A DNA stretch of 6,498 bases from Anaerolineae bacterium (GTDB taxonomy: Bacteria > Chloroflexota > Anaerolineae > B4-G1): the NCBI GenBank assembly GCA_030612185.1, contig JAUWOI010000259.1, forward strand, positions 1 to 6,498, in the 5' to 3' direction. Made by a program: the position numbers and the translations under genes. Below, in pieces: positions 1 through 6,498 of this stretch. Numbering within the stretch: the stretch's first letter is position 1; each line of letters opens with the position of its first letter. The notes under the pieces are model-generated. The model made no database searches. It was not told the origin of the DNA and saw only the letters and a program-made list of their open reading frames with translations.

Positions 1-989
1 TGGGAGAAGGAACGCACGACCCAGACGAGGAGCGCGGAGCCCAGCGGGATCAGCCAGTGGGCCATCAGTCGAGCAACAGATCGGCGGGTGGCTGGTCGGA
101 TGAGCCGGAGGAGCAGCGACACGGCCAGGAGCAAGAGGGTGAGGCTGGCCAAGAGCCGCATTTCGGGGCGGCCTACGGCGCCAACGAGACCTGTCAGATG
201 AAAGACCCAGACCTGGCTCAACAGGTAATCCACGGGGACAGATTCTGTGAGCCCCTGGCCTCTCTGAATCCGGGCTTGAACGTCTGGCCAGTGGGTGAGG
301 ACTGCGATCAGCCAGGGCAGGCTGGCGAGGCCCACCATGAGTTGCGTGATCCACCAGCGGCGCAGGTCAGTCCACCGCCGCTCTCTCCAAAAAGTCAGGA
401 GTGACCAGCCTCCCGCGTAGGCCACGACGAAAAGGACCATGTAGTGCAGATAGAGACCGATCGCCTCGATGGTGCCCAGGAGCAGCCACGTGGCGCGGCG
501 GTGAGGGCCGGGCTTCTGGGTCAGTTCGTGCGTGATGGCCAGCAGGGCCAGGTAGACCAGGGGGAGCAGGGCGTAGACGCGGATCTCCTGGGCGTAGACT
601 ACAGAGAGGGGGGAGAGGGCGGTGAGCAAGACAGCGACCCGGGCGGTGGGCCGGCCCAGCCAGCGACGGGCGATTGCATAGACAGCCGCCACCTGCAAGA
701 GGCCAACCATCGCCGAGAGGAAGCGGGCGCTGAATATGTTGCTGCCCGCCAGCGTTACCCACCCTTTGAGCAGAAAGAAGTAAAGGGGAGGGTGGATGTT
801 GGCCGCCCGGTTGGCGACGATCTCGATCAGGCTGGAGTTGGCCAGATGCAGGCTGATCCCTTCGTCCACCCAGATACTCTGTCCACTCAGGCGGTAGAGG
901 CGCAGGGCGAAGGCCATGAGCAATGAACAATGAACAATGAACGATGAACAAATTTGGGATTTGGGGTTTGGGGCTTGGGGTTTGATCAT
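1..989 (-). CDS. Glycosyltransferase family 39 / PMT_2-type membrane protein, C-terminus outside window
   Basis: Reading the minus strand from 989 gives 329 codons with no stop before the window edge, so the gene is partial. Hallmarks of GT-C family 39 enzymes are visible: WVDEG at residues 40-44 in the first outer loop (the acidic residue expected to be catalytic), HPPLY at 66-70, and YAQEIRVY at 132-139. Several hydrophobic helices follow, for example around 91-108, 117-132, 140-152, 168-198, 214-231 and 280-297. Known members move a sugar from a polyprenyl-phosphate carrier onto an acceptor at the outer membrane face; the substrate here is unknown. ATG 989 is preferred because it makes an ATGA overlap with the preceding gene's stop. 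ATG 917 is a fallback that would leave almost no first helix. Residues 1-24 are encoded largely by two 7-bp repeat arrays. Codons after residue 25 are rich in third-position G/C (35 of the next 40 by hand count). Family is confident, start moderately so. Confidence 0.88.
   Translation of the reverse strand, partial: MIKPQAPNPKSQICSSFIVHCSLLMAFALRLYRLSGQSIWVDEGISLHLANSSLIEIVANRAANIHPPLYFFLLKGWVTLAGSNIFSARFLSAMVGLLQVAAVYAIARRWLGRPTARVAVLLTALSPLSVVYAQEIRVYALLPLVYLALLAITHELTQKPGPHRRATWLLLGTIEAIGLYLHYMVLFVVAYAGGWSLLTFWRERRWTDLRRWWITQLMVGLASLPWLIAVLTHWPDVQARIQRGQGLTESVPVDYLLSQVWVFHLTGLVGAVGRPEMRLLASLTLLLLAVSLLLRLIRPATRRSVARLMAHWLIPLGSALLVWVVRSFS
916..950 (+). repeat. Heptanucleotide tandem repeat, five units of ATGAACA type
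   Basis: On the + strand the units are ATGAGCA, ATGAACA, ATGAACA, ATGAACG, ATGAACA, each exactly 7 bp. The array lies inside the start of the family 39 gene. Read on the coding strand it encodes a hydrophobic Cys-Ser-Leu-Phe-Ile-Val-His type cycle (residues 14-24 of the protein), which forms part of the putative first membrane helix. Confidence 0.92.
953..987 (+). repeat. Heptanucleotide tandem repeat, five units of TTTGGGG type
   Basis: On the + strand the units are TTTGGGA, TTTGGGG, TTTGGGG, CTTGGGG, TTTGATC. The last unit ends on the first base of the CAT that is the reversed start codon at 989-987. The array therefore encodes residues just after the initiator Met (Lys-Pro-Gln-Ala-Pro-Asn-Pro-Lys). 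Phase and length match the array at 6132-6166. Confidence 0.92.
956..980 (+). other. Four-run G-quadruplex motif
   Basis: The + strand has four G runs of 3, 4, 4 and 4 separated by loops of 4, 3 and 3 bases, satisfying the usual G3+N1-7 pattern. The G-rich strand is the template strand for the minus-strand genes, 9 to 33 bases downstream of the family 39 start. Folding has not been shown and it may simply be a by-product of the repeat. Confidence 0.6.
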
Positions 990-1008
990 TGGGCTTCTAC
1001 CGTAATGG
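982..1008 (-). repeat. Junction repeat, copy at the 849-residue / family 39 boundary
   Basis: These 27 bp match 6161-6187 at 23 positions by direct alignment. They cover the codons for the final Ala-Ile-Thr-Val-Glu-Ala-Gln, the ATGA overlap and the start of the next gene. Part of the identity is expected because the two upstream genes end in homologous domains, but the match continues past the stop codon. Confidence 0.8.
986..989 (-). promoter_or_regulatory. ATGA stop-start overlap
   Basis: The TGA of the 849-residue gene (988-986) overlaps ATG 989 of the family 39 gene. It has the same arrangement as the junction at 6165-6168, again without a strong Shine-Dalgarno site, which points to translational coupling and supports the upstream start over ATG 917. 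Confidence 0.75.
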
Positions 1009-3535
1009 CAGGCAGTACGAGTTTCTGTTCGGGTAGCGCTGTGCCGGCCTGATCTACCACCGGCAAGCGTTCCAGGGTGTCAGGATTGTACATTCCGACG
1101 GCCACCTCGTAGTGTCCTGGGCTCAATCCGCTGGTGTCCAAAGTAATTGTGTCAGTGATGATTTCGTCTTTGTCCCACCAGGACGTCGGATACGTCCAGT
1201 CACGTGGCATGCCATCATACTGGGCCACGATTGCACCGTCGTCCAGGGAGGATAGGTGTACGAAGACTTTATAGTCTCGATCCATCCGGCGCACAGCCTG
1301 CCAGTAGAGGGTCAATTCCAGCGCCTTGGAGGAGAGTTGCAGATCATAGCCTCGGAGAAGAATGACGTCCCCCCAGAGCACGTGCAGTGGATGCGCCGGT
1401 CTTGGTTCGACAAAAACGCGAGGTAGCGGTTCTATCCGTAACGAACCCAGGACGAACGGGTGTCCCGTCCCTATCTCAGTAGCGCTATCCCTCAGAGTCA
1501 ACATCAGCGAATACGTTCCTGGCTCCAGAAAGGGGTTCACTTGCAGGGCATAGGCAGCGCGCACCACCTCACCTGCCTCCCAGCGGGATGTAGGCCACGT
1601 TGGAGAGAGCGGCTCGCAGTACGATTGGGCTACCCTGTCGGCAGTGTTGACTAGACTCAGACACACGTCGTAATCCCGGCCGGGCGCAGCAGTACTTCCC
1701 CAACGGACATCCGCCTGGATCAGGCCAGCCTGAGTGGTCCTGGTGGGTGTGAAGGTGGCTCGGATGAGACCGATTTCATCCGTCATATCGTGAGCCAGGA
1801 CGAAATCACGTCCCGGATACGGGTCGGTGCGGTAGACGACCACGTCCGCGTCGTCGTGATACGGGTCAAAGGTCAGCCAATCCTGCCAGGCAGCCAATTG
1901 ATTCGGACCGGCGAATTTCTTGTGGAGGACGATGTAGCGAATATCCGCTTCGGCCAGTGGTCGCAATTGGTGGGACACGTCCACCAGAGTCGGGTCCATA
2001 ACGTTGTGCTGGCGCACGTATTTCAGGAAAGGGATGCTGTTTATGAAGGCAAGGGCCTCCCGAGGAGGACGGGCTGTCTTCCCCTCGACCAGGGGTTTGT
2101 CGTGAGTTGTTTGGTAGAACATGTAGTGTTTGTCAAAGGTGTGACCGTGTGTCGGCAGATCCAGGATGGCGAAATCGCCGGGTTCCTGGGCCAGTTGACT
2201 GTACCAGGCCGGGGTGAAAGGAGGCTCGGTTGGGTAGGGTACAGGGCAGTATTCGCCTACAACCAATGTTCCTATGATCCCCACCAGCAAAGCCGGGCTC
2301 CGGCCAAAGGAGCGTTGGCGCAAGAGAGCCCTCATACCCAAGGATGCCAGCATCCCCATCGGGAGTCCCAGAAATATGTTGAAGCGATCAGGCTTGCGCA
2401 GCACTCGTATGAAGAACAGGTCACCCACCAGCCGGTAGGGCATCGGAACCTGGGGGTAGAGTTGGCCGTTGACGCGCAGTTGAGGGCCGAGGGCCAGGGC
2501 GATGTACACTACTGCCGCCGCTATCCAGAAGCGAGCCTGTCGCCAGTTCCTTACAACACCACAAAGCACCAGAGCCATGGTCGCATATCCGAGGAAAGCG
2601 ATATTGGTTTGGTTGACGTTAAAGTTCTCGTAAAGCGGGGAGACCGCATCACCCCACAGGGGGTGATAGCGGCTGGGCAGCACATAGGCCAGCAAATCTG
2701 TCTGTGCTGTGGTCTGTTCGTCAATGAAAATATCCTCTGGGTGGGCCCGGGTTAGTTGAGCGATAGTTAGAGGGGCCGCCAGGGGAATCAGCAGTATCCC
2801 CGTGACAAGCCCGATCAGCACCAGTAGACCCAGAGTGTGTCGAGTCCAGCAGGCTTTGTCTACCAGACATCTGTAGATTAGATACAGGCCAACGATCACC
2901 CCACCCATAATCAGCAGATGCCAGCGGGTCAGTCCCGTGAGAAACAGGAAGAAGGCTGTCAGAAGCGCATCGCGTTTTTGGCCTCTCTGCAACGTGCGTC
3001 GCAGGTAGAGGAGCACCAAGGGAACCCAGCAGGTAAAAACCAGGTTTGGATGCTCATAGTGGGACAGAGTATACGGCCAGAAACCATAGATCAAACCGCC
3101 AATAAATGCCGCTGGTTTTGACCCCGTCACTTCGCGGGCCAGCAAGTACATCGTGAAGCCGTTCAGAGCGAAGACGGTGAAAAAAATCAAGTTGTAAGCA
3201 ATTACCCTGCCTACAATTGCTTGCAAGGGTAGCCAGATGGCGATGTTGAGCCAGGCAAAGTTGTGGAAGATCAATGGCACGCCTTGAGGATAGAATAGAA
3301 GATCAGTGTGAAATGGGCTATGTCCCTCCATAATAGACTGTTTCACCCACCAGAAGGTCCATTGGTGAGCCCACAGGTCTCCACCCCCAGCCAGATGTGT
3401 TCCCAGCCGAGCGATGAGTGGCCAAGTCATCACCACTGTCAGCAAAATGTAGGTGAGCAGGACAAAGATGGCCTCCCGGTGTCGACAAATGCCCCCAAGG
3501 AAAACTCCACTTGGACGATGTTTGGCATCCTGCAT
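986..3535 (-). CDS. Polytopic GT-C-like membrane protein with two C-terminal beta-sandwich modules (849 aa)
   Basis: This is a complete gene of 849 codons. Hydrophobic segments run from about residue 22 to 430 (roughly 11-12 helices). The first outer loop carries GGDLWAHQWTFWW with Asp53, in the place where GT-C enzymes keep a catalytic acid. Further conserved blocks shared with the upstream paralogue are LFYPQG (80-85), HPNL (162-165), QTDLLAY (278-284), PMPYR (364-368) and PDRFN (382-386). A soluble region at about 431-575 has FYQTTHDKPLVEG (473-485) and RYIVLHK (533-539). Two related modules follow: about 592-703 (RDYDVCLSL, WPTSRW, EPGTY) and 716-849 (RDYKVFVHL, YPTSWW, SPGHY). I infer an outer-face sugar-transfer or lipid-linked glycan role, but the exact family is not one I can name and it may be catalytically different. 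Start at 3535 is supported by GGAGGT five bases upstream and a 1-base overlap (TAATG) with the upstream stop. Its stop overlaps the next start (ATGA). Codons are less G/C-rich at position three (23 of first 40) than in the flanking genes. Confidence 0.9.
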   Translation of the reverse strand: MQDAKHRPSGVFLGGICRHREAIFVLLTYILLTVVMTWPLIARLGTHLAGGGDLWAHQWTFWWVKQSIMEGHSPFHTDLLFYPQGVPLIFHNFAWLNIAIWLPLQAIVGRVIAYNLIFFTVFALNGFTMYLLAREVTGSKPAAFIGGLIYGFWPYTLSHYEHPNLVFTCWVPLVLLYLRRTLQRGQKRDALLTAFFLFLTGLTRWHLLIMGGVIVGLYLIYRCLVDKACWTRHTLGLLVLIGLVTGILLIPLAAPLTIAQLTRAHPEDIFIDEQTTAQTDLLAYVLPSRYHPLWGDAVSPLYENFNVNQTNIAFLGYATMALVLCGVVRNWRQARFWIAAAVVYIALALGPQLRVNGQLYPQVPMPYRLVGDLFFIRVLRKPDRFNIFLGLPMGMLASLGMRALLRQRSFGRSPALLVGIIGTLVVGEYCPVPYPTEPPFTPAWYSQLAQEPGDFAILDLPTHGHTFDKHYMFYQTTHDKPLVEGKTARPPREALAFINSIPFLKYVRQHNVMDPTLVDVSHQLRPLAEADIRYIVLHKKFAGPNQLAAWQDWLTFDPYHDDADVVVYRTDPYPGRDFVLAHDMTDEIGLIRATFTPTRTTQAGLIQADVRWGSTAAPGRDYDVCLSLVNTADRVAQSYCEPLSPTWPTSRWEAGEVVRAAYALQVNPFLEPGTYSLMLTLRDSATEIGTGHPFVLGSLRIEPLPRVFVEPRPAHPLHVLWGDVILLRGYDLQLSSKALELTLYWQAVRRMDRDYKVFVHLSSLDDGAIVAQYDGMPRDWTYPTSWWDKDEIITDTITLDTSGLSPGHYEVAVGMYNPDTLERLPVVDQAGTALPEQKLVLPAITVEAQ

Positions 3536-6168
3536 TATCTACCTCCGAGTTGGTAATCGTTCGTTTTGCCCTGCGTCGCTATATCGCGGCCATTTGACGA
3601 TTCTCGGTGGGGGAGGGGAGCGTTAGTCTCAGTACAGTCTGCCGAAATCAGCAAGGCGTCGGGAAGGATGAAACGAGCATTGGGGTAGAGTCCGTTCTCC
3701 GACCCTCGCGCTGGCAGGCGTTCCTGAGTCGCCAGGTGGTACAGTCCCACTGCCAGATGGTATTCTCCTGGAGGCAATCCCCGCAAGGAGATGACTGCCC
3801 AGTCTGGGACGAGATCCCCGGCATGCCATTGGCTGGTGGGGCATTGCCAGTTACAAGGTACGGCGTCGTGTTGTCGTACAATCTCTCCGTCGGCGTTCAG
3901 GAGATGGACGAAAACCTTGTAGTCAGCACGCGGGTCCTTCAGCGTTTTCCACAGGATCGTCATCTGCAAATCGGTTCCTTCTGTCCGCCACTGATATCCT
4001 AGAAGCTGAATGATGTCACCGTAGTGGATATCCAACGAGCGGCGCAAGTAGGTGACATGACCGTCTGGATGCATCTCCAGTGTTCCCGGCGCGATATAGG
4101 CTGTCGCTCCTGGGCAGATCGCGGCCCAGTGATACGCCCCGGGCTCCAGCGCTTGAGGGAGTGAAACCATGGCCTCCTGCATCGCCAGGTCTCCCGCTGC
4201 CCAATTTCCTTCTTCCTCTGGCAGTGTCTCGAAGAGAGTGATCGGCACCTCTAGCACACTTTCATCTTCTCCGACAAGTCGAATCTGGCAAGCGAGCGGG
4301 GACGTGCGCGGGGCCAGCAGAACGGCCAGTATCTGCAATTGCCACTCCGTGCCCACTTCATTGTGTTGGACGTCGAACCGGGCCAGGGCTACGTCAGGGG
4401 CGAGGGGAATCGGAAAGCCGCCATAGCAAGCAGGCAACGGGCGAGCGACGTCGTACACTGCCACGGCCGAGTCCTCGTAGACAGGCACAAGGGGGAGCAA
4501 ACGCCGGAAGTGGGCCTCACTGTCGTCTTTCAGGTAAGGCTTGTGGAGCAGGATGTAGCGCACACCGGAGGTTTCCAGCGCGCGCAGCGCCGGACCCAGC
4601 GCCGAGACGGGGATGGCCGCGCCACTGAACATATCTCTCGGGAGGCGAACCGGCTTCTTGGCTACCTGGTAAAATGCCCGCAGCAGGGGGTTTGAGGCGA
4701 TAAAGACGTAGTCTTCTGGTGTGTAGCGGGCGATGTGGCCCTCTACCATTGGCTTGCCGTGAAGTGTCTGGTAGTAGAGCCATTTCTTGCTGAAGGTGTA
4801 TCCCATCGGATAATCCACCACGCCGTACAGCGCCTGCTCCTGTGCCATTTGCTGGAAGAAGGGAGATGCAGGAGGGATATCCCACGTCGGCAGAGGGATG
4901 CATAGGTATTCGGCGAAGACCAGGAACACCAGAGGAACCAGCAGCCAGCGCCGTTGTCTCGCCAGGTAGGCAGCTCCCAGGCCGGCTGACACAGCTAGCG
5001 AGAAGGCCACGAGCAAATTGAAGCGGTCGGGTGCGCGAATCGCAGAGATGGGAAAGAGATGACCGATGAAGCGGTAGGGCATTGGAATGTGGGGGTAGAG
5101 AGTGCCATTCAGGCGCAGGACAGGGCCGGCGGCCAGCACCATCCAGAAACCCGTGCTGAGAAGCCAGAACCAGGCTGCTTTCCGCCGCGAGAGGAGCGAA
5201 ACCAGGGCCAATCCCAGCGCCGTGTAGCCCAGGTAAGGCACATACTTCCAATTAGTTCCGGAACGCTCATAAAAGGAAATCACACGTGGGCCTGCGAGTG
5301 GGTGATAGGGGGGCGGCATCAGGTACGCGAGGAGATCGGTCTGTTTGCTCAGTCCATCATCAAAAGCCGCTGCTAAATCTGCCATCCCGCGCCAGTCTCT
5401 GGCAATAGGAAGAACCACCGGAGCAGTCAGCATCAGTGTGATAATTCCAATGAACCCGACGATACCGACGGTGCAAAGATAGAAGCGGCCCCGCTCAACG
5501 CTTAGGCCTGTCCATCGCAAGAGGTGCCAACCGGTATATGCGACTGTCCATAGTGCCAGCAGTAAAGCCAGGTGAAGACTGGACCAGAGAGTCAGTGCAG
5601 CGAATAGGCTTGCGTAAAGCGCATTAGTTGCCCGGTGCCTGCGCAGTGTGCGATGCAGGAACAGGGCATAAAAGGGCCACCAGTGGATTGAGCCGAGATT
5701 GCCATGGGCCAGTGCCCGGGTCAAATGGTAAGGTGTGAGGGCAAAGACGAAGCCTGCCAGAAGCGCGGCGGAGGAATGATGAGTTATCTCGCGCACCAGC
5801 AAGAACATCCCGATAGCGCTCACCCACAGCCCGAAGAGGAGAACGAGATTGTAGGCCGCCACGGGTTCGACCAATCGCTTGAGGGGGAGAGCCAATAGCG
5901 AGTTGAGGAAAGAATGCGAGTGGGCGACCATGTTTGCTCCGTGAGGATAGAAAAGGTAAGGGGTGAAGAACCAATTGTGTCTTTCAGCGATGGCTTTTTC
6001 CAGCCACCAGTTGTTCCAGTAGAAGATCCAGCTATCGGTGCTGTTGCCAAGCAGCCGCTGGGAGAGATGGAGTGAGACCGGAAGCGACATCAGGCCAATG
6101 AGCAGCGCATAAGCAACCCCCACCCCCAGGGTTTGAGATTTGAGATTTGAGATTCGAGACTTGGTCAT
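3535..6168 (-). CDS. Polytopic GT-C-like membrane protein, paralogue of the downstream gene (877 aa)
   Basis: The frame is open from 6360, but I place the start at ATG 6168, giving 877 residues. The 64 upstream residues are Arg/His/Pro-rich and overlap, in another frame, the clearly conserved end of the preceding gene, while 6168 forms an ATGA stop-start overlap. The layout matches the downstream gene: STDSWIFYWNNWW with Asp45 in the first loop, LFYPHG (72-77), HGNL (155-158), QTDLLAY (276-282), PMPYR (362-366), PDRFN (380-384), YYQTLHGKPMVEG (465-477) and RYILLHK (537-543). About 11-12 hydrophobic helices lie between residues 15 and 425. A first beta-sandwich module (about 595-700) is poorly conserved; the second (about 711-840) keeps DYKVFVHL, CPTSQW and PPGEYHLAVGLY. 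Residues 843-877 are a hydrophilic tail missing from the related proteins, and its last codons include the ribosome binding site of the next gene. Residues 4-14 come from a 7-bp repeat. Likely outer-face sugar transfer; substrate unknown. Confidence 0.88.
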   Translation of the reverse strand: MTKSRISNLKSQTLGVGVAYALLIGLMSLPVSLHLSQRLLGNSTDSWIFYWNNWWLEKAIAERHNWFFTPYLFYPHGANMVAHSHSFLNSLLALPLKRLVEPVAAYNLVLLFGLWVSAIGMFLLVREITHHSSAALLAGFVFALTPYHLTRALAHGNLGSIHWWPFYALFLHRTLRRHRATNALYASLFAALTLWSSLHLALLLALWTVAYTGWHLLRWTGLSVERGRFYLCTVGIVGFIGIITLMLTAPVVLPIARDWRGMADLAAAFDDGLSKQTDLLAYLMPPPYHPLAGPRVISFYERSGTNWKYVPYLGYTALGLALVSLLSRRKAAWFWLLSTGFWMVLAAGPVLRLNGTLYPHIPMPYRFIGHLFPISAIRAPDRFNLLVAFSLAVSAGLGAAYLARQRRWLLVPLVFLVFAEYLCIPLPTWDIPPASPFFQQMAQEQALYGVVDYPMGYTFSKKWLYYQTLHGKPMVEGHIARYTPEDYVFIASNPLLRAFYQVAKKPVRLPRDMFSGAAIPVSALGPALRALETSGVRYILLHKPYLKDDSEAHFRRLLPLVPVYEDSAVAVYDVARPLPACYGGFPIPLAPDVALARFDVQHNEVGTEWQLQILAVLLAPRTSPLACQIRLVGEDESVLEVPITLFETLPEEEGNWAAGDLAMQEAMVSLPQALEPGAYHWAAICPGATAYIAPGTLEMHPDGHVTYLRRSLDIHYGDIIQLLGYQWRTEGTDLQMTILWKTLKDPRADYKVFVHLLNADGEIVRQHDAVPCNWQCPTSQWHAGDLVPDWAVISLRGLPPGEYHLAVGLYHLATQERLPARGSENGLYPNARFILPDALLISADCTETNAPLPHRESSNGRDIATQGKTNDYQLGGR
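3541..3546 (-). promoter_or_regulatory. Shine-Dalgarno site for the 849-residue gene
   Basis: The minus strand reads GGAGGT, then five bases, then ATG at 3535. This is a near-ideal ribosome binding site, and it lies inside the last codons (Leu-Gly-Gly-Arg) of the upstream gene. It is the only strong site at any of the three junctions; the two ATGA junctions have none and probably rely on coupled re-initiation. Confidence 0.85.
6132..6166 (+). repeat. Heptanucleotide tandem repeat, five units of TTTGAGA type
   Basis: On the + strand the units are TTTGAGA, TTTGAGA, TTTGAGA, TTCGAGA, CTTGGTC. As at 953-987, there are five units and the last one ends on the first base of the CAT of the start codon (6168-6166). 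On the coding strand it gives Ser-Arg-Ile-Ser-Asn-Leu-Lys-Ser-Gln, residues 4-12 of the 877-residue protein. Confidence 0.92.
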
Positions 6169-6187
6169 TGGGCTTGCACCGTGATGG
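6161..6187 (-). repeat. Junction repeat, copy at the right-edge gene / 877-residue gene boundary
   Basis: Partner of 982-1008, with four mismatches in 27 bp. It covers the codons for the terminal Thr-Ile-Thr-Val-Gln-Ala-Gln, the ATGA overlap and the first codons of the following gene. Direct orientation relative to its partner, 5.2 kb away, with the two paralogous genes between them. Confidence 0.8.
6165..6168 (-). promoter_or_regulatory. ATGA stop-start overlap
   Basis: The TGA ending the right-edge gene (6167-6165) overlaps the ATG of the 877-residue gene (6168-6166). No clear Shine-Dalgarno sequence precedes it, so translation of the downstream gene is probably coupled to termination upstream. 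The overlap also decides the start against the longer open frame beginning at 6360. Confidence 0.8.
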
Positions 6188-6498
6188 TGGTCAGATGGAT
6201 GGCGTCGGAGCCGTCGGGGGTGGTGAGCCGTTCGCCGCCAGGGACGTACAGACCGGCATAGAGGGTGTAGTCGGCCGTTGGTGTTTCGGGCGGGATGGTG
6301 AGCACGTGTACGTCGGTGACGTATTCGCCGGGCAGCCAGCCGGTGGTGGGGCGGGTCCAATTGGCAGGGATGCCGTCAGATTGGGCGACCAGCGCGCCAT
6401 CAGGGCCGGTGAGGTGGAGGAAGACGTTGTAAGAGGTATCGGTCTCTGCTTCGGCGCGCCAGACGAGGGTGACGGTGAGGTTGGTAGATTGGTAGATT
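6165..6498 (-). CDS. C-terminal beta-sandwich domain of a larger protein, 5' part outside window
   Basis: The minus-strand frame from the first full codon (6497-6495) to TGA at 6167-6165 gives 110 residues. They contain LTVTLVWRA, SYNVFLHL, AQSDGIPANW, RPTTGW, ADYTLYAGLY and a final TITVQAQ. These match, block by block, the C-terminal module of the two full-length proteins (for example DYKVFVHL, YPTSWW, HYEVAVGMY and AITVEAQ at the end of the 849-residue protein). The domain is most likely extracytoplasmic and probably sits at the end of another polytopic or family 39 type membrane protein, but the N-terminal part that would show this is not in the window. Third codon positions are G/C in 30 of the first 40 codons. 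The stop overlaps the next start as ATGA. The domain assignment by similarity to its neighbours is firm; the identity of the whole protein is open. Confidence 0.85.
   Translation of the reverse strand, partial: IYQSTNLTVTLVWRAEAETDTSYNVFLHLTGPDGALVAQSDGIPANWTRPTTGWLPGEYVTDVHVLTIPPETPTADYTLYAGLYVPGGERLTTPDGSDAIHLTTITVQAQ
6481..6498 (+). repeat. 8-bp direct repeat at the right edge
   Basis: TTGGTAGA occurs twice back to back, followed by TT, where the window ends. It lies inside the open reading frame of the right-edge gene (encoding Ile-Tyr-Gln-Ser-Thr). Whether it continues beyond the window cannot be seen. Confidence 0.5.

Follow-up and report, generated by a model that had tools for sequence, protein, structure and literature searches.

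Two gene junctions in a stretch of 6,498 nucleotides from an Anaerolineae bacterium (contig JAUWOI010000259.1; the whole stretch is called the window below) have the same build: the stop codon of one gene overlaps the presumed start codon of the next in an ATGA, and an array of 7-bp units follows. Why does a repeat of this length stand where a reading frame would begin? We propose, with a probability of about 0.6, that stop-free heptamer arrays, produced by 7-nucleotide slippage or register shift, run across gene junctions or replace existing codons, and that the cell translates them. According to the ORF list, the window contains four genes, A to D, all on the minus strand, and gene D is truncated by the window end (329 amino acids are seen). 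The features are as follows.

3 to 989, minus strand: gene D, a PMT_2 or glycosyltransferase-39-like membrane protein (PF13231, E-value 1.5e-15; homologs)
916 to 951, minus strand: third array, sense unit TTGTTCA (TRF ATGAACA, 5.1 copies; score 21)
951 to 985, minus strand: array of site A (TRF 953 to 984, TTTGGGG, 4.6 copies; score 17)
982 to 1008, minus strand: copy A of a 27-bp near-repeat, made up of the gene C end, ATGA and the first array bases
986 to 989, minus strand: ATGA overlap of site A, gene C stop and presumed gene D start (ORF list)
986 to 3535, minus strand: gene C, a DUF2079-like membrane protein of 849 amino acids (PF09852, E-value 5.4e-08)
3535 to 6168, minus strand: gene B, a membrane protein of 877 amino acids without a Pfam match
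6130 to 6164, minus strand: array of site B (TRF 6132 to 6163, TTTGAGA, 4.6 copies; score 18)
6161 to 6187, minus strand: copy B of the 27-bp near-repeat, made up of the gene A end, ATGA and the first array bases
6165 to 6168, minus strand: ATGA overlap of site B, gene A stop and presumed gene B start (ORF list)
6165 to 6497, minus strand: gene A, last 110 amino acids, with a C-terminal domain that resembles that of gene C

Site A is thus where the end of gene C meets the start of gene D, and site B where gene A ends and gene B starts. Among the relatives of gene C, the best (85% identity) carries the name Anaerolineae bacterium. The C-terminal domain that genes A and C have in common (window 6165-6497 and 986-1700) is repeated in the order to which the relative G001 belongs; gene C has 8 to 27 matches per genome among the matches listed, many of them only to residues from about 600 on.

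The composite structure that the original prediction had described, an ATGA overlap followed by five 7-bp units in one register, is seen at both junctions in the sequence and by TRF, and a manual recount on the two strings agrees with its figure of 23 identical positions out of 27 (982-1008 against 6161-6187). Straight after the TGA, the sense units read TCAAACC CCAAGCC CCAAACC CCAAATC CCAAATT at site A and CCAAGTC TCGAATC TCAAATC TCAAATC TCAAACC at site B. All ten fit YCRARYY in a single register, so the units of the two sites differ only by transitions; the units given originally, TTTGGGG and TTTGAGA, do differ in sequence but belong to this one pattern. In the phase chosen originally five units are present as well, but the fifth is degenerate (TTTGATC, CTTGGTC) and includes a base of the start codon. 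None of 2,000 Markov shuffles of the window reached a score of 17 (their maximum was 12), and only period 7 and its double, 14, score 12 or more in the window among periods 2 to 20. At the lowest threshold, TRF adds weak short rows of 7 bp (2.9 copies at 2482-2500) and 8 bp (2.2 copies at 6481-6498). The ATGAACA array (916-951) directly adjoins the array of site A. The CCAATGA at the stop is partly in register with the array (CCAAGTC comes next), so an array may extend back into the 3' end of the upstream gene; the window arrays appear to begin there, with the ATGA at or inside the array edge.

G-quadruplexes were considered as a common reason for the arrays and rejected: runs of three or more C or G occur in four units of site A and in none of site B. 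On the plus strand of site A (953-984), opposite the genes, G occurs in runs of three or four, and a G-quadruplex might form there, which is not possible at site B.

Could one junction have been copied from the other, a block of gene end and array being duplicated or converted together with the common C-terminal domain? The DNA similarity jumps at the junction, where the best local match between the ends of genes A and C is confined to the last 23 nucleotides (20/23 identical) despite their homologous domains; register and unit count are equal at both junctions, and the AQ ending that the two genes have in common occurs in none of the 58 other gene C relatives listed. However, the same register recurs behind other endings in the relatives G405 and G406 (...LEHPSQ*, ...VILKAQ*, ...QLNYQ*), so a common origin in one block need not be assumed, and we regard copying as very unlikely.

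The comparison was extended to relatives in Chloroflexota/Anaerolineae, chiefly G001, G405 and G406. A genome scan led to five loci, one of which (L002, from the Anaerolineae genome G001) contains five heptamer arrays of four unit kinds within 13.6 kb, and one locus of another genome (L091, G251) has eight different units within 6.3 kb. The pattern CAAWYYY was found in 30 of 400 Chloroflexota genomes; within the order of G001, its shorter form was present in 12 of 48 genomes and TTSTTCA in 13 of 48. A control with the reversed pattern gave hits in 17 of the 400 and 10 of the 48 genomes (manual counts) and is not clean, because the reversed pattern is itself a heptamer pattern. Four genomes with many reversed-pattern hits (G328, G346, G123 and G441) have heptamer arrays built from other units, which makes the heptamer class wider than the units searched.

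The period is far less variable than the unit. In 873,764 bp taken mostly around such arrays, we counted 151 arrays of period 7 (from 101 loci, mostly selected for CAAWYYY arrays), compared with 13 for period 8, 6 for period 9 and a total of 3 for the remaining periods between 3 and 13. A set of 337,038 bp picked by protein similarity yielded 22 arrays of period 7 and a total of 12 for the other periods between 2 and 13 (four of 8, three of 9, three of 12, one of 6 and one of 10), and a few of these 22 are not independent, since the L252 and L070 families were picked for an array-bearing member; shuffles of this set contained no arrays. In 20 contigs of G001 that were not selected for arrays (151,473 bp), there were only two period-7 arrays, both on one contig. 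Two further observations concern the layout of the arrays. A single called ORF of 8229 nucleotides (L092, G251) overlaps nine heptamer arrays with several units, and inverted pairs between genes, in which an array is followed after a short gap by a reverse-complement array, are frequent (L113 4997-5041 / 5050-5094, L091, L106, L110). Such pairs could form hairpins, for example as terminators.

Where do the arrays lie relative to genes? Genes were called with our own hexamer caller, start codons are presumed, and the null was drawn within the same loci. Gaps between codirectional genes account for 62 of the 151 arrays (null 7.8%) and mid-gene positions for 52 (null 70%); just 3 arrays follow a called start by 60 nucleotides or less (null 6.3%), the caller tending to place starts behind arrays. 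Called ORFs enclose 21 of 24 arrays in G406, 19 of 23 in G001 (loci listed) and 19 of 37 in G405, where the arrays of contig C122 are counted twice, as they are in the stop-distance rows and the CAAAYYY hits below. That contig (L209) has two mirror-image halves with identical arrays and is probably an assembly artefact. Pfam matches of nine array-bearing ORFs comprise a HypF-like protein, a DEAD helicase, a glycosyltransferase, three amidohydrolases, a UvrD-like helicase, a histidine kinase and a QRPTase-NadA protein. The last of these (L229 4243-6114, G406) has QRPTase (NadC)- and NadA-like domains in a single ORF with an array at residues 275-290, and it looks as if two genes were fused by the array.

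The pattern ATGAN{0,6}CAAAYYYCAAAYYY gave 13 hits in 7 of the 48 genomes of the order of G001, compared with 2 hits in 2 of the 48 for an AGTA control; three of the five hits outside G001, G405 and G406 represent one orthologous gene start without an array (L250, L251, L253). Within these three genomes the ATGA prefix occurs 8 times and AGTA twice (binomial p 0.11). The gap from ATGA to CAAA is 0 or 1 base in all eight cases and, as in the window, 1 base in five of them. Eight of 59 separate CAAAYYY arrays, obtained by our own clustering of 106 hits, lie directly behind ATGA in these genomes, where 0.46 would be expected with two phases (p 2e-8) and 1.6 with seven (p 2e-4). A long ORF opens from five of the eight sites, but not from the other three. 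The arrangement of the window is therefore real and recurring, strongest in G405, yet one position among several. This bears on the original prediction of a recurring junction module or of a repeat family that lands or grows at ATGA overlaps: the arrangement does recur in relatives, but the arrays are not specific to ATGA or start codons, so that, judged by the refuting condition set with that prediction, a form restricted to start codons fails and a preferred register after ATGA survives. A universal junction element was rejected, as the junction of genes B and C (TAATG at 3535) is without an array both in the sequence and by TRF, and arrays in relatives are often mid-gene. The fixed number of five units did not hold up either; unit counts in relatives follow no such rule. 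The window arrays would belong to a class of stop-free heptamer arrays that is probably translated in this lineage and for which junctions after ATGA are one favored place.

Are the arrays coding at all? The ATG in the window arises from CAA TGA, the ...AQ* ending that genes A and C share, and might be a by-product of that ending; the arrays would then be untranslated slippage debris in a noncoding spacer, with the true starts behind them. The preference for codirectional gaps in the phylum (the 62 of 151 arrays above) is in keeping with a spacer, and so are arrays that start within 3 bp of the upstream stop (21 of the 77 array rows retained by our distance rules, against 9.0 expected). The open frames differ between lineages. 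Where a TGA stop overlaps a start and a 7-bp array comes within the next 25 nucleotides, the frame from that start runs open into the next called gene at 8 of 12 junctions in G001, G405 and G406; at comparable junctions that lack an array the figure is 11 of 44 (Fisher p 0.014), and this difference argues against a spacer. At other Chloroflexota loci, outside the order of G001, the start is open in 0 of 11 cases with an array and 8 of 33 without, as a spacer would predict. Many arrays in the order of G001 lie inside ORFs, and two facts from the window genes also speak against debris. The site B array would encode the tail of gene B, TKSRISNLKSQT, and in two gene B relatives (P0124, 67% identity, and P0125, 66%) the tail length is unchanged with MDKSQTSNPKSQILGVAVAYAL and MTKSRIFNLKSRILGVGVAYAL in place of MTKSRISNLKSQTLGVGVAYAL. 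Gene D would lose most of its first helix if it lacked the array residues, as judged from a model. Taken together, we consider a noncoding spacer unlikely.

What would the arrays encode? The array of site A would specify residues 2-13 of gene D (IKPQAPNPKSQI) and the TTGTTCA array residues 13-25 (ICSSFIVHCSLLM), the larger part of the first helix; an AlphaFold2 model of gene D (mean pLDDT 90.0, pTM 0.86) places this helix at residues 9-31, so that its residues up to about 25 would be array-coded. Two gene D relatives, P0250 (50%) and P0249 (47%), have a polar and then hydrophobic repeat-like N-terminus in their protein sequences: MSKPQTPNPK... followed by ...FAICLFVICHLSL in P0250, and MTHITHRATRNTHH... 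followed by ...FTICSLLIVHCSFF in P0249. They are the only two among the 29 gene D relatives listed with clear two-part N-termini; in the closest relative (P0241, 66%) the N-terminus with its first helix is plain, and nearly all of the 29 likewise have plain N-termini. Array peptides in relatives are either polar (SNLKSQI, SNLQSPI, PNPKPQ) or hydrophobic (FIVHCSLFIVHCSL). They include the N-terminal tails MTNTESQISNLKSQI and MENNQSQISNLQSQ, and two further N-terminal peptides, MTKSQILRLTLPLALVIAHCSLFIGHWALAAPP and MLFIVHCSLVIASAQS, look by eye like signal peptides. Over 60 arrays, the hydropathy of the encoded peptide did not correlate with that of the flanking residues (rho 0.10, p 0.47). A polar array with a hydrophobic one behind it was found in five hits in 3 of 8 genomes, two of the hits overlapping, and the reverse order in 0 of 8; these numbers are too small to carry weight.

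Orthologous sites show how the arrays change. Of 60 arrays, 12 near protein ends were left out of this comparison, and 17 of the remaining 48 had an orthologous hit after hits with a flank identity below 0.40 or above 0.985 were dropped; the alignments comprise 20 of 120 listed proteins (A1), the query with 27 of 120 (A2) and 19 of 30 orthologs (A3). A 491-residue protein of G405 (L252) has array-coded residues at its start behind ATGA. Among the 17 members of its family that were read, array-coded N-termini occur in G405, G406 and G001, the distant L301 and L303 have another heptamer at the N-terminus, L302 has an array upstream, and 11 have none. The orthologous junctions L252 and L292 differ in their array-coded N-termini.

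The clearest case is an amidohydrolase loop (residues ~176-192, L323-L352), which contains an array in 6 of 30 orthologs. Five of these have the units AAATCTC, AAAGCCC, GTGGCAA, CGCAACT and CGCAATT, the last two differing by one base, and the sixth, from G197, has a partial array. All six array-bearing loops have 29 residues between the same anchors, as do 21 of the 24 array-free orthologs, the other three being shorter by 2-4. A tree from which the loop was left out requires five changes of the array state, at least three of them forced, and the state is not clustered on it (160 of 500 shuffles were equally low). In a model of the G001 protein (pLDDT 84.7, pTM 0.88) the loop links the helix 164-183 to the strand 189-191. 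Some other arrays are plain insertions (L035 at 6475, L244 at 1579), so length constancy is seen only for the amidohydrolase loop and the gene B tail.

Turnover at constant length could also reflect a switch. In E. coli K1, the neuO gene of prophage CUS-3 carries an AAGACTC array in its 5' coding region that encodes an N-terminal tail of 7-residue repeats and changes by slippage, with the gene ON at unit counts divisible by three, according to the available passages on neuO, which are among those from PMC6749651, PMC4060949, PMC13001214, PMC2651432 and PMC3046976. As in neuO, the window has heptanucleotide arrays between a presumed start codon and the gene body, with the frame open; gain or loss of units there would toggle the downstream frame, and repeated +7/-7 cycles would also account for unit turnover at fixed length. 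However, neuO is one gene with one long perfect array (3 to 53 units in these passages) and a known switch, whereas heptamer arrays here occur in many genes with many units, are short and imperfect (TRF 88-89% matches in the window) and are also found in the middle of housekeeping-type enzymes. We therefore think a phase-variation switch quite improbable.

Heptamers of other kinds are familiar from bacterial genomes. In filamentous cyanobacteria, the STRR heptamers form unit families and are placed between genes. Repeats of 5-11 nucleotides, heptanucleotides being the most abundant, were attributed to proposed polymerase slippage by Mrazek 2007, as cited in PMC4679880. The window arrays qualify as long simple sequence repeats of this kind (unit of 5-11 nucleotides, longer than chance); in the cited passage units that are multiples of three are likeliest in genes, unlike the unit of 7 that is common inside genes here. 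PMC4679880, in the part available, describes TAACTGA repeats of Beggiatoaceae and others that lie at gene starts, mostly upstream of them, some in ORFs near protein ends, with a constant unit that has stops in all forward frames. In contrast, the window arrays have variable, stop-free units, none of them TAACTGA. The GGGNATC-type G-quadruplex heptamers of Xanthomonas and Nostoc (PMC4692102, in part) lie between aligned ORFs near stops in about four units, are under-represented in genes and require G runs, unlike the window arrays, in which a G/C run is found in four units of site A and none of site B. Coding tandem repeats of Borgs evolve fast and yield new protein segments, with signal peptides and membrane helices enriched in repeat proteins; their in-ORF units are all divisible by three in the available part of PMC9879509, unlike the 7 seen here. 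The tandem repeats of constant size and variable sequence in PMC8161180 (part of the text) likewise combine a single size with many sequences per genome, at 20-21 or 52 nucleotides rather than 7. Repeats enriched near the N-terminus are attributed to Lin and Kussell in passages that cite them. A literature search, with most subscription papers outside its scope, turned up no description of heptamer arrays being translated in Anaerolineae.

We hypothesize that the window arrays are members of a genome-wide heptanucleotide class in some Anaerolineae, in which the period is fixed and the unit varies. This reading starts from the arrays and their register, the open frames, the recurrence in relatives and the one loop that holds five units at a fixed length. 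The arrays would arise and turn over via 7-nucleotide slippage or register shift of DNA synthesis; for units common to many genomes, dispersal of existing arrays could be an alternative. The common units are free of stops in the sense direction and, as 7 is not a multiple of 3, one 7-residue peptide results in all three frames, which would allow read-through wherever an array forms. Behind the ATGA of the two window junctions, translation of the remaining array would give the downstream gene a polar N-terminal tail that contains lysine (MTKSRISNLKSQT; MIKPQAPNPKSQ), and the second array of gene D would supply most of the first transmembrane helix. Selection on the frame would hold the overall length constant at sites where it counts, even as the units change in sequence. 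Since the addition of one unit alone would shift the frame, paired gain and loss or register-shifted copying would fit this pattern. We infer translation and a slippage origin from these comparisons, along with whatever benefit the cell may draw from the arrays.

A further-reaching version is tentative, and we give it rather less credence. A period-7 process may rewrite coding DNA of one Anaerolineae lineage in place, its frame-proof peptides supplying tails, signal peptides, helices, loops and fusion linkers. Arrays would then form, change their unit in concert and vanish at one loop or N-terminus without a net change in length, sometimes with a hydrophobic array behind a polar one.

Heptanucleotide arrays were already known, as in neuO, and it is their widespread coding use together with length-preserving unit turnover that looks new. 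Until now such repeats have been familiar as curiosities of intergenic DNA or as phase switches acting on one gene. If our reading is true, the arrays would be a record of slippage under frame constraint, the cause of period 7 would be testable via orthologous loops across one bacterial order, and the annotation of start sites at stop-free repeats would need evidence. If non-triplet arrays are routinely translated and their units replaced at constant length, they would supply proteins with new segments, among them targeting signals.
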